56,399 bases of DNA from a virus, in the IMG/VR virus record IMGVR_UViG_3300005329_000004, positions 1-56,399 of that record; one strand, given 5' to 3'. Below are positions 10,746-16,165 of this stretch, piece after piece. The number at the start of each line of letters is the position of its first letter. Within the stretch, counting starts at the first letter, position 1. The position numbers and the translations under genes were made by a program. The notes under the pieces were generated by a model. It saw only the letters and a program-made list of their open reading frames with translations, made no database searches and was not told the origin of the DNA.

Positions 10746-11029
10746 GGACGCTTGAATTCCACAGGCCGATGTCGTGCCAGCTCGCCGAAGCCGCCGTCCT
10801 GGCCGAGCACGAAGCCGCGCAGCGGCGCGTCGTCGAAGAGCATGGCCAGCGTCCAGCGTTCGGCGACGAGCCGGTCGAGTTGGTGCGATTCCTCGGCGAA
10901 TCGACGCGCATGGGGCTCATCACGAGCGTCGCGAACGATTTGGAACGCTGCGGTCGCAATGTGGCGATTCGGTGGATTCACGACGACGCCACGCTCATCA
11001 TCGGCGTCGCGATCGTGGAGTTCGCATGA
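10742..11029 (+). CDS. Small early protein, unknown function
   Basis: 95 residues between two ATGA overlaps. An N-terminal helical part (CQLAEAAVLAEHEAAQRRVV) precedes a mixed segment ending VAIRWIHDDATLIIGVAIVE, which looks like a small alpha/beta fold. No family recognised. Confidence 0.58.
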   Translation: MRTLEFHRPMSCQLAEAAVLAEHEAAQRRVVEEHGQRPAFGDEPVELVRFLGESTRMGLITSVANDLERCGRNVAIRWIHDDATLIIGVAIVEFA

Positions 11030-11565
11030 GCGCATTGGATCATCACCTCGGCTGTTCGTGCCCTGTTTGCCGTTGTGTCAGCAGAGCAGCGATGCCGCTC
11101 GGTCAGCAAAGAACTATGACCGTCGAAGCGACCATCGGCGCACCGGCATTCTGGAAGAACGTTGATATGTCCGGCGCCTGCTGGCCATGGCGCGGGCCAA
11201 GTAATCCGCGCGGCTATGGCCGTCTGCGATTCGAGGGAAGAAAGAGTTACGTCCATCGGGCCGTGTATGAGACATTCTTCGGGCCGATCCCGGCGGGATT
11301 GGTTGTGATGCACGTCTGCGATAATCCGAAGTGCGTCCGGCCGAGCCATCTCCGCGTTGGCACGCAGATCGAGAACATGCGCGATATGGCGATGAAGGGA
11401 CGAGGGCGGAAATCGAATCCGTCCAGTCGCGAACAAAGTGCGACGTGCCGGAACGGCCATGAATACGCGCCCTTGAACATCTATCGCGACGGGAAGGGCA
11501 AACGTCGATGCAGGATCTGTATGAAGATCATCAACGACGCGCGCCCGAGAGCGCAATCAGCATGA
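11026..11565 (+). CDS. HNH endonuclease (HNH_3 type)
   Basis: 179 residues. CWPWRGPSNPRGYGRLRFEG begins the typical HNH_3 start, then VHRAVYETFFGPIPAGLVV, and the catalytic box VMHVCDNPKCVRPSHL with its His, Asn and His. The following QIENMRDMAMKGR is the usual DNA-contacting helix region. A C-terminal Cys cluster (CRNGHEY, RRCRICM) forms a second zinc site. Such free-standing nucleases often behave as homing enzymes. The first 30 residues with a Cys group may be extra; an internal ATG is possible. Coupled by ATGA to both neighbours. Confidence 0.85.
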   Translation: MSALDHHLGCSCPVCRCVSRAAMPLGQQRTMTVEATIGAPAFWKNVDMSGACWPWRGPSNPRGYGRLRFEGRKSYVHRAVYETFFGPIPAGLVVMHVCDNPKCVRPSHLRVGTQIENMRDMAMKGRGRKSNPSSREQSATCRNGHEYAPLNIYRDGKGKRRCRICMKIINDARPRAQSA

Positions 11566-13171: not shown

Positions 13172-14314
13172 GTGTCGAGACCTCGCGCCTACTACAACGA
13201 ACACGACGCGAAGAAGGCGGCGTGGTTGCGCGAGTTGATCGCGCGGAGATTGATCGCGCCGGGCGACGTCGATGAGCGAAGCATTCTCGACGTGCGGCCG
13301 AGCGATATCGCCGGATACAAACAGTGCCATTTCTTCGCTGGCGTCGGAGTGTGGAGCTACGCCCTCGGATGCGCCGGCGTGCCAGACTGGGCACGCGTGT
13401 GGACGGGAAGCTGTCCCTGCCAACCGTTTAGCGACGCGGGAGACGGCGCTGGATTCGCCGACGAACGCCATCTCTGGCCGGCGCTCTTCGCCCTTGTTCG
13501 CGAGTGCCGACCTCTCATTCTCTTTGGTGAGCAGGTTGCGTCAGCGCTTGGCCTCGCGTGGCTCGACATTGTTTCGGCTGACCTGGAAGGAGCGGCGTAC
13601 CGCGTCGGGGCGTGTGATTTCAGCGCTGCGAGCGTCGGCGCTCCCCACCGCCGCCAGCGCTTGTATTTCGTGGCCGACACCGACGACGCAGGACAGCGCG
13701 AGTTCGCGACGGCATGGGTACATGATCGCGGGTCACGGCGGAACCACCCTGACAGATGCGGCGCATCTGTCAGGGTGGCCAACGCCGACTGCGACGGAGT
13801 TGGGCAATACGCTCGAGAATTACCGGGCGATGAAGGCGAACATGACGTCGGGGTCGCGAGAGGCGATCACGCACTTATCGATCGCCGCGCAACTGGCGTC
13901 GTGGACGACTCCGCAGAGCGGGGACTCGCTGCGGGGCATTTCGGAAGCGCATCGCGCGAAGCAGATCGCCCGGGGCCACGGCACGGCGGAGCTGACGTAC
14001 GATGCGACGCTGGCGCATTGGCCGACGCCGGTTCGGGAGGACTCCGAGTCGACGGGGAAGCGCCCGCAGTCGGACAGCCGTCACAAGGATTCTCACACGT
14101 TGACGAGCGCGGCCCGGTTAACGGCTTCTGGCGAGATGCTGATTGGCTCTACTGCACCGACGACAAGTGGCGGCCGGTTGAACCCGGCGCATTCCCGCTG
14201 GTTGATGGGGCTCCCGCCCGCGTGGGACGACTGCGCGGTTACGGCGATGCCATCGTCGCCCCGCAAGCCCAAGCGTTCATCGAAGCGTACATCGACGTCC
14301 TCGCTAACCGATAA
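13172..14314 (+). CDS. C5-cytosine DNA methyltransferase (Dcm-like)
   Basis: 380 residues, GTG start directly after the upstream stop. Motif I is FAGVG (residues 55-59), motif IV CPCQPF (81-86) with the catalytic Cys, motif VI FGEQV (118-122, Gln in place of the usual Asn), and motif VIII in [12 protein letters not shown] (158-169). It should methylate cytosine in phage DNA, probably against host restriction. From residue 169 to about 320 the target-recognition region holds four spaced elements like VADTD, VANAD, VVDDS and LADAG. The C-terminus ([20 protein letters not shown], then RLRGYGDAI) restores motifs IX-X. A second long frame, 13272-14330, overlaps almost all of it. Confidence 0.85.
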
Positions 14315-14330
14315 GGATTATCACATATGA
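13272..14330 (+). CDS. Overprinted reading frame within the C5 methyltransferase gene
   Basis: 352 residues in a different frame from the methyltransferase. It is not random: [26 protein letters not shown], repeated WPTPT (three full and one variant WTTP, each followed by D or E), [13 protein letters not shown] and [19 protein letters not shown] match a protein family I recall from many phages and bacteria, often near cytosine methyltransferases. Its stop forms the usual ATGA overlap with the gene at 14327, as real genes here do. The start is uncertain; 13272 is the first ATG and has only a weak ribosome site. Its function is unknown. Confidence 0.6.
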
Positions 14331-15196
14331 AATTCTCGCGCATCTCAGTCACGAAGAAGGGCGTCGAGCTCGCGTACGAACGAAAGGACGAACACAAGTC
14401 GGAAGAGGTTGTCGCCAAATCCGCTGAGCGACCGCTGCCATCCTTCGCGGACGCGCTCCAGTCGTTCGCCGCGTTCGTGATCGATCTCTTGGAGATCCCC
14501 GACGAGTGGCGCGAGAACCTGACGATTACGACGCTCAATCTGTCGGAAGACAAGAACGGGTATCGCGGGCTGATCGTCACGGCGACGCGGCCGATCCCGA
14601 AAGCGTATGACCGGCCGCTCGTCATGAACACGCCGCTCGTCCGCGAAGGCAGCGAGGACGCGAGCGACGAGGCGTGCACGCTGTCGGATGAAGTCTTGGA
14701 GCTCGTGTCGCTCGTCGAGGGCGAAGCCGTGCGGTACTTGAACGGCGAGCGCGAGCAGCTCGATCTCTTGAAGCCGTCCAATTCCGAGAACGTCGCCGAG
14801 TTCAACGAAAACGCGGCGCACGCTGAAGTGCAGTCGACGCGGAAGCCGAAAGGTCGGAAGGGCAAAACGCCGCCGCAATCCGAGACGGGTGTCGCGCTCG
14901 TCGTGAACGAACCAGGCGAGCCGCTTGACGACAACGCGCTCCGTCAGTTGCTGCTCATGGTCGAACGGGATGTGCCGATCGATGCGTTGGCCATTCTCAC
15001 GTCGTCCGAGCGCGAAGCGTCCGCCGCATGGGCCAAGGCGCGACAACAGGAGATGCTCGGCACGCTGGATTCGACGGCGATGCCGGCGGAACCCGCCTGT
15101 GTGATCCGCTACGCCACCTTGCCGCTCAAGGCCGACGCGTGGACGGGTGATCACGTGCCGCCCAAGGCGACCGACGTCGAGACTGTGCACGGCTAA
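14327..15196 (+). CDS. Early protein, unknown function
   Basis: 289 residues, starting in the ATGA overlap with the overprinted frame, with AAGGA upstream. Residues 1-130 look folded ([40 protein letters not shown]), residues 165-190 are a Lys-rich linker ([12 protein letters not shown]), and the last 100 residues are a separate helical part. A family with the first domain is common in phage early regions; no function is known to me. Confidence 0.62.
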
Positions 15197-15693
15197 TGGG
15201 CGGCGTGAATATGAGCGCGGTCGACCGAATGGGGCGGCCGATTCGGCGCGGCCCGGAGAGTCCGCAATGGCGGGGCGGGCGCTGCACGAGCAGCGCGTAC
15301 GTGACGCTGCTCGTGCCGGATCACCCGCGCGCCGGAAAACAAGGACGCGTTTGCGAGCACGTGCTTGTCGCCGAACGCGCCTTGGGCAAATACCTGCCCT
15401 CAACGGCTGAGGTTCATCACGTCGACGAGAACAAACAGAATAACGACCCGCATAACCTCGTGATATGCCAAGACCATGCGTACCATGGGCTCCTACATCG
15501 ACGAATGCGCGCATTCAAGGCGTGCGGCAACCCGAATGCGCGGTGCTGCGTGCGGTGCGGATCCTATCGAGATCAAGAGGACATTCGAGTGAGTCGCGGC
15601 GGACAGTCGTATCATCGGTCCTGCCAGGCAAAGCACGAGCGTGAGCGAAAGGCGGCGATCCGCGCAGCAAGGCGTACGAGGGGCTCTGTATGA
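15196..15693 (+). CDS. HNH endonuclease
   Basis: 165 residues with a TAATG stop/start overlap. RGGRCTSSAYVTLLVPDHPR leads to CEHVLVAERALGKYLPS and the HNH core VHHVDENKQNNDPHNLVICQ, with the first His pair, Asn and final His. Two Cys pairs follow (CCVRCG, then C near RSCQAK). This is the HNH type that acts on double-stranded DNA. Second HNH gene in the early region, not closely similar to the one at 11026. Confidence 0.85.
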   Translation: MGGVNMSAVDRMGRPIRRGPESPQWRGGRCTSSAYVTLLVPDHPRAGKQGRVCEHVLVAERALGKYLPSTAEVHHVDENKQNNDPHNLVICQDHAYHGLLHRRMRAFKACGNPNARCCVRCGSYRDQEDIRVSRGGQSYHRSCQAKHERERKAAIRAARRTRGSV

Positions 15694-15857
15694 ACTGCGA
15701 CCGCGAATACGACAAGTTCCGCGCGCTCTTCCCCACGTTTAGCGCCACCAAGGCGGCGCGAGAGTGCGAGCGCGCCTGGCGGAAGTTCCTCCGCGACGCC
15801 AACGAGTCTAACGACAGCCCGTCCCGTCCTCGTCGTGGACCCCAACAGGAGAAATGA
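15690..15857 (+). CDS. Small early protein with repeat-derived tail
   Basis: 55 residues (MNCDREYDKFRALFPTFSAT, then KAARECERAWRKFLRD). The C-terminal PRRGPQQEK is encoded by the start-associated repeat at 15831, so the tail probably came from that element and not from the protein's own history. ATGA overlaps at both ends. Confidence 0.55.
   Translation: MNCDREYDKFRALFPTFSATKAARECERAWRKFLRDANESNDSPSRPRRGPQQEK
15831..15850 (+). repeat. Start-associated repeat, type A copy 1
   Basis: CGTCGTGGACCCCAACAGGA, ending three bases before the ATG at 15854. Its AGGA end serves as the ribosome site. Identical to 16171-16190. Confidence 0.8.
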
Positions 15858-16165
15858 CAGTGCCGCAATTCAGAAAGAAGCCGGTCGTGATCGACGCGTT
15901 TCGGTGGCTTGCGAAGCCGCCCGTGAAGGCATGGAAAGATCTGGATGCGTGGCTCGTGTCGCTCGGACTTCCGCCCGCCGACGAAGCGGAAACGGACGAT
16001 GATTGCCCGCTCTGGGTGAATGGCGACGAGTCGATCACGATTCCAACGCTCGAAGGCGATATGCGATGTGACATCGGCGATTGGATAATCCGAGGTGTGA
16101 AGGGCGAGCTGTATCCCTGTAAGGATGAGATTTTCCAAATGACATACGAAGCGGTCGAGCCATGA
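15854..16165 (+). CDS. Conserved small phage protein
   Basis: 103 residues. FRKKPVVIDAFRW at the start and GDWIIRGVKGELYPCKDEIF near the end are the signature of a family widespread in phages of many hosts. Its structure suggests a small ligand- or protein-binding fold; no role is established that I know of. A type A start-associated repeat lies just upstream. Confidence 0.72.
   Translation: MTVPQFRKKPVVIDAFRWLAKPPVKAWKDLDAWLVSLGLPPADEAETDDDCPLWVNGDESITIPTLEGDMRCDIGDWIIRGVKGELYPCKDEIFQMTYEAVEP

Follow-up and report, generated by a model that had tools for sequence, protein, structure and literature searches.

Why should a phage DNA methyltransferase gene carry a second long reading frame over nearly its whole length, and what, if anything, does that frame encode? 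The question arises in a viral record (IMG/VR IMGVR_UViG_3300005329_000004), of which positions 1 to 56,399 are called the window here. An earlier note, made from the sequence of the window, had described two long frames overlapping for more than 1 kb and had read them as a natural overprinted gene pair. Both open reading frames are indeed there (genes A and B in Table 1): they share 1,043 bases of the same strand, with B in the +1 frame of A, starting 100 bases into A and leaving only its last 16 bases outside. In this register, the second base of a B codon is the third base of an A codon, and the third (wobble) base of B is the first base of A. The stop codon of B overlaps the start codon of the next gene in the ATGA arrangement that the note had likened to that of neighboring genes, and an AAGGA Shine-Dalgarno sequence directly follows the end of A (14314). 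No promoter, terminator, or known RNA element was found in the methylase region. Two HNH endonuclease ORFs (Pfam HNH_3; 10774 to 11565 and 15196 to 15693) lie on either side of it, and a small ORF of unknown function (15854 to 16165) matches phrog_419 (E = 1.2e-29) and phrog_4502 (E = 3.8e-20).

Table 1. Features of the overlapping methyltransferase locus (positions in the window)
Feature	Position	Strand	Remarks
Gene A, large domain of a C5-cytosine methyltransferase, with motifs I-VIII and X	13172..14314	+	GTG start, 380 aa; PF00145, phrog_363
Gene B, proposed small (recognition) domain subunit	13272..14330	+	ATG start, 352 aa; phrog_1008, phrog_31772, coding constraint
A, motif I (FAGVG)	13334..13348	+
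A, motif IV with catalytic Cys (CPCQPFS)	13412..13432	+
A, motif VI (GEQV)	13526..13537	+
A, motif VIII	13640..13669	+
A, motif X	14237..14266	+
B, conserved block, predicted beta hairpin after helix	13563..13637	+	Nearly invariant columns; sole confident part of the AlphaFold2 model
B, putative recognition region, four WPTP/WTTP repeats (13671, 13776, 13902, 14019)	13671..14030	+	Homologous to repeats of one-frame methylases
B, motif IX-like block	14178..14225	+	Present in 144 of 151 B proteins
ATGA overlap, ATG of next gene (14327) and TGA of B (14328-14330)	14327..14330	+

The assignment of A to the C5 methyltransferases, also made in the note, is borne out by the catalytic PCQ and by matches to phrog_363 (E = 3.5e-74) and to Pfam PF00145 (E = 1.7e-12; 47.9 bits with a cut-off of 22, over profile positions 66 to 165 of 324 only). 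Its motif X reads GDAI in the window; among 151 relatives, GNAI occurs in 136 and GDAI in 4. In the window, B matches phrog_31772 (E = 1.9e-26) and phrog_1008 (E = 1e-35); the latter is matched by each of the 80 B proteins that were aligned. The family features quoted for B beforehand are present in its translation. Given these PHROG and Pfam matches, the families of both proteins are known from many phages, as the note had stated. The families phrog_1008, phrog_31772, and phrog_27243 all represent the B frame; the first two are labeled "DNA methyltransferase" although this frame lacks the catalytic motifs.

The first possibility to be weighed is that B is a shadow ORF, left open by high GC content and codon bias and owing its conservation to that of A. 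In the window alone, the probability of an open B was 0.01 when the codons of A itself were shuffled and 0.07 with the codon usage of neighboring genes, and many words of B lie opposite conserved motifs of A. Since an open B is thus only mildly unlikely, relatives were needed to decide. The homologue set comprised 151 loci with A proteins less than 90% identical, fetched via A and via B; expected stops were obtained by shuffling each A gene's own synonymous codons, and stops were counted between A motifs I and X. In this region, frame B contained 11 stops (431 expected) and was fully open in 142 of the 151 homologues (7.9 expected), so that the check for stops in the second frame, proposed in the earlier note, came out in favor of a maintained frame. 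Stops were not depleted in the +2 frame of the same homologues (1,816; 1,613 expected) or in neighboring genes as a control (473; 481 expected), and the depletion in B was the same for loci picked by A alone.

Codon choice in A follows the same line. Of 403 Leu and Val codons that precede a codon starting with A, 7 end in G, compared to 38% before codons starting with G and 32% before those starting with C or T; the final G is avoided because TGA would arise in B. Likewise, xTA before A or G was found twice in about 3,100 cases, because TAA or TAG would then arise in B. Furthermore, in 30 independent phage pairs having homologous neighboring genes, four-fold sites differed at 0.088 in A and at 0.249 in the neighbors, the roughly threefold reduction of synonymous variation that the note had asked to be looked for. 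The A protein is nevertheless less conserved than the neighbors' proteins, and the direction was the same in 27 of the 30 pairs.

Along the gene, the burden of conservation shifts between the frames (37 pairs). A is conserved more than B over motifs I to VIII (0.937 and 0.866), B more than A in the middle of the gene (0.802 and 0.694), and the two to the same degree at the C-terminal end (0.882 and 0.887). Taken over the entire gene, B is the better conserved of the two in several pairs. In the middle, the most variable position is the first base of A, which is the wobble base of B. Together with the own-codon shuffles, the neighbor-gene control, and the codon choice, this pattern, the synonymous constraint, and the homologues of low GC content listed below all speak against a shadow ORF, which is refuted as a general explanation by the shuffles with their neighbor control and by the synonymous constraint; we assign it practically no probability. 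On comparative grounds, which we regard as decisive, B is a real protein gene under protein-coding selection, and the reading as a natural overprinted pair stands on both stop depletion and synonymous constraint.

The overlap has been retained in phages of great diversity. Both frames were present in 314 of 314 loci tested, and the pair occurs in Vequintavirus, Vibrio, and Jedunavirus phages (44 to 47% GC), in Cylindrospermopsis phages, in Acinetobacter and Bacteroides phages (41 to 42% GC), and in a Paenibacillus phage (45% GC). A marine group of 41 to 55% GC had no stop in B where 65.9 were expected (14 non-redundant members). A DNA pattern for ETWPRSGM retrieved 56 further ORFs, down to 39% GC, over C5-methyltransferase frames, with 15 stops where 186 were expected (52 of the 56 ORFs); this set is biased toward B because the pattern fixes part of its frame, a bias that affects neither the marine group nor the sets chosen by A. 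The ETWPRSGM family had been considered as a stand-alone B and was rejected, since it overlies a C5-methyltransferase frame. Indeed, we found no stand-alone B gene at all: A was present at every locus found via B. Similar DNA was found in 65 of 5,426 Escherichia coli genomes. In the prophage of E. coli Ec1117 (L541:1054-2223), NCBI lists the methylase as a pair of partial pseudogenes next to a frameshifted MT-A70 gene. GenBank sometimes annotates both frames, as in K1ind2 (C-specific methylase and "Mte8-like") and in PhiXhv-5.

What, then, does B contribute? The small domain of C5-methyltransferases consists of a variable recognition region and motif IX (PMC3404938). The motif IX pattern, a sequence resemblance, was found in 144 of 151 B proteins and in none of the 151 A proteins, and therefore we read the large domain in frame A and the small domain in frame B. 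The B profile matches gp70 of mycobacteriophage ShiLan, an ordinary one-frame C5-methyltransferase, at its LPTP repeats and at the LAPAFSEWMMGWPAGW block (E = 5e-7; the set comprised just 13 proteins), and a profile-profile comparison of the B repeats with the repeats of one-frame methylases gave a probability of 95% (E = 3e-8). In the fused methylases, the LAPAFSEWMMGWPAGW block precedes motif X, and in a HMMER alignment, in which this segment alone is not significant, it lies opposite M.HhaI residues 273 onward (LHPRECARVMGYPDSY), that is, motif IX. By homology and position, the WPTP repeats would thus be the part concerned with target recognition. Their number varies from 0 to 7 among B proteins, which suggests exchangeable recognition modules.

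Structure prediction adds to this for the fused enzyme. AlphaFold2 was confident for the catalytic domain and the motif IX-X part of a fused member, not for its repeats, and the best PDB matches of this model were M.HhaI structures. The model of B itself was mostly of low confidence, and a structure search with it was discarded as a guide to its fold, the matches among viral structures being its own family and noise. The B profile had no match in the PDB, and B had no relative in Pfam; an IclR helix-turn-helix (E = 0.0023, below the cut-off, in 1 of 80 members) was rejected.

The relatives of ShiLan gp70 come in three forms. One set is fused in one frame (L464-L479). Most of a second set (L480-L509) are split: A ends soon after motif VIII, and an overlapping +1 ORF carries the repeats and motifs IX and X. 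A third set is overprinted (L510-L540). In a tree of the catalytic domain, the fused and split forms lie together on one side of a branch (support 98/98) and the overprinted forms apart, with a midpoint root and an unsettled bootstrap, and for these two reasons the direction of change among the forms is tentative. With the midpoint root, overprinted first would be the simpler reading. Closely related actinophages differ in being fused or split (L480 compared to L465, L469, and L478) and also in repeat content; frameshift variation, shuffling of repeats, or errors in the sequences may account for this. We lean slightly toward a broader reading, in which an overprinted small recognition domain would be the usual and ancient organization of a phage C5-methyltransferase superfamily in phages of Pseudomonadota, Cyanobacteria, Bacteroidota, Bacillota, and Actinomycetota, the actinophage forms, whether in one frame or simply split, would have been derived later, and a great many phage ORFs called "hypothetical" or "methyltransferase" would be hidden specificity subunits.

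These forms bear on two further explanations. B could be an independent modulator of A (an inhibitor, a chaperone, or an anti-restriction protein) that is overprinted on the methylase and stands outside the enzyme. Its exclusive occurrence with A is what one would expect of a modulator, and nothing in known small domains corresponds to its conserved N-terminal part. However, the C-terminal half of B shares homology with the part of one-frame methylases that comprises the recognition region and motif IX, the latter being absent from A; furthermore, the B-like ORF of the split actinophages has motifs IX and X and therefore must belong to the enzyme there. We consider a modulator improbable. The earlier note had left open whether B acts in modification or in blocking it; the former is favored, because the recognition region and motif IX are present in B and missing from A, and the latter gained no positive support.

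Alternatively, programmed ribosomal frameshifting out of A after motif VIII might yield, besides A, a long fused methylase like that of the actinophages. The fused relatives have exactly this composition, and the differences between close phages in being fused or split would fit as well. However, B has a conserved start region of its own. The 120 bases upstream of motif I contain a frame-B ATG in 142 of 151 homologues, mostly at −36, −54, or −24, and Asp codons placed so as to make such an ATG are GAT in 54% of cases, compared to 28% for other Asp codons there. In the marine group, the start of B is fixed 4 bases after that of A, in ATGAATGAG, with AAT kept in 14 of 14 members. In the window, no Shine-Dalgarno sequence was found close to the ATG of B (13272). 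B is also conserved upstream of motif VIII, a part that would be useless to a frameshift product, and the searches made gave no hint of a shift site. We regard frameshifting as highly improbable.

The locus is therefore best explained, and we think probably correctly, as a two-subunit C5-cytosine DNA methyltransferase whose large catalytic subunit (A) and small recognition domain subunit (B) are written in two frames of the same DNA. A would provide SAM binding and catalysis with motifs I to VIII, plus motif X; B, made up of an N-terminal extension, the WPTP-repeat region, and motif IX, may associate with A in trans, supply target recognition, and close the DNA cleft. The enzyme probably shields the phage DNA from restriction. 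We infer that both frames are translated, that A binds B, and that both are needed for methylation. Cloning of one frame alone would be expected to give an inactive enzyme. Overlaps of about 1 kb that are selected in both frames across very diverse phages are rare, well-supported examples of overprinting over such a length. Many phage ORFs gain a testable role as DNA-recognition subunits, and with the enzyme occurring naturally in fused, split, and overprinted form, the origin of overlapping genes is open to direct study.

The two-polypeptide kind of C5-methyltransferase is already known, and it is its breadth across phages that seems unreported: in open-licence papers, the only mentions found for an overprinted phage methylase were of M.EcoHK31I and M.AquI. 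M.EcoHK31I has its small ORF inside the large one, in a different frame, and B likewise lies within A, apart from its last 16 bases. M.EcoHK31I is a natural two-polypeptide enzyme (YGGCCR) whose large polypeptide has motifs I to VIII and X and whose small polypeptide has motif IX (PMC3404938), the same division as between A, with motifs I to VIII and X and without IX, and B. In this division of motifs and in the nesting, the pair here resembles that kind. The predicted recognition domain of M.EcoHK31I, however, is placed in the large polypeptide (PMC3404938), whereas the recognition-like repeats are in B here. In M.AquI (CYCGRG), the division into two polypeptides, alpha and beta, falls after motif VIII (PMC3404938). 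It resembles the split actinophage state, in which most of L480-L509 have an M.AquI-type small subunit with motifs IX and X and a large one that ends before X; in the window, unlike in M.AquI, motif X is in A. An out-of-frame second protein described in a phage methylase gene is a mobile insertion (PMC11855218); it concerns a different methylase gene and is unrelated to B. Finally, the one-frame methylases of the ShiLan gp70 type have the same catalytic domain, PTP repeats, and motifs IX and X; there, all parts stand in one frame and a second protein is unneeded, whereas the window holds them in two frames.
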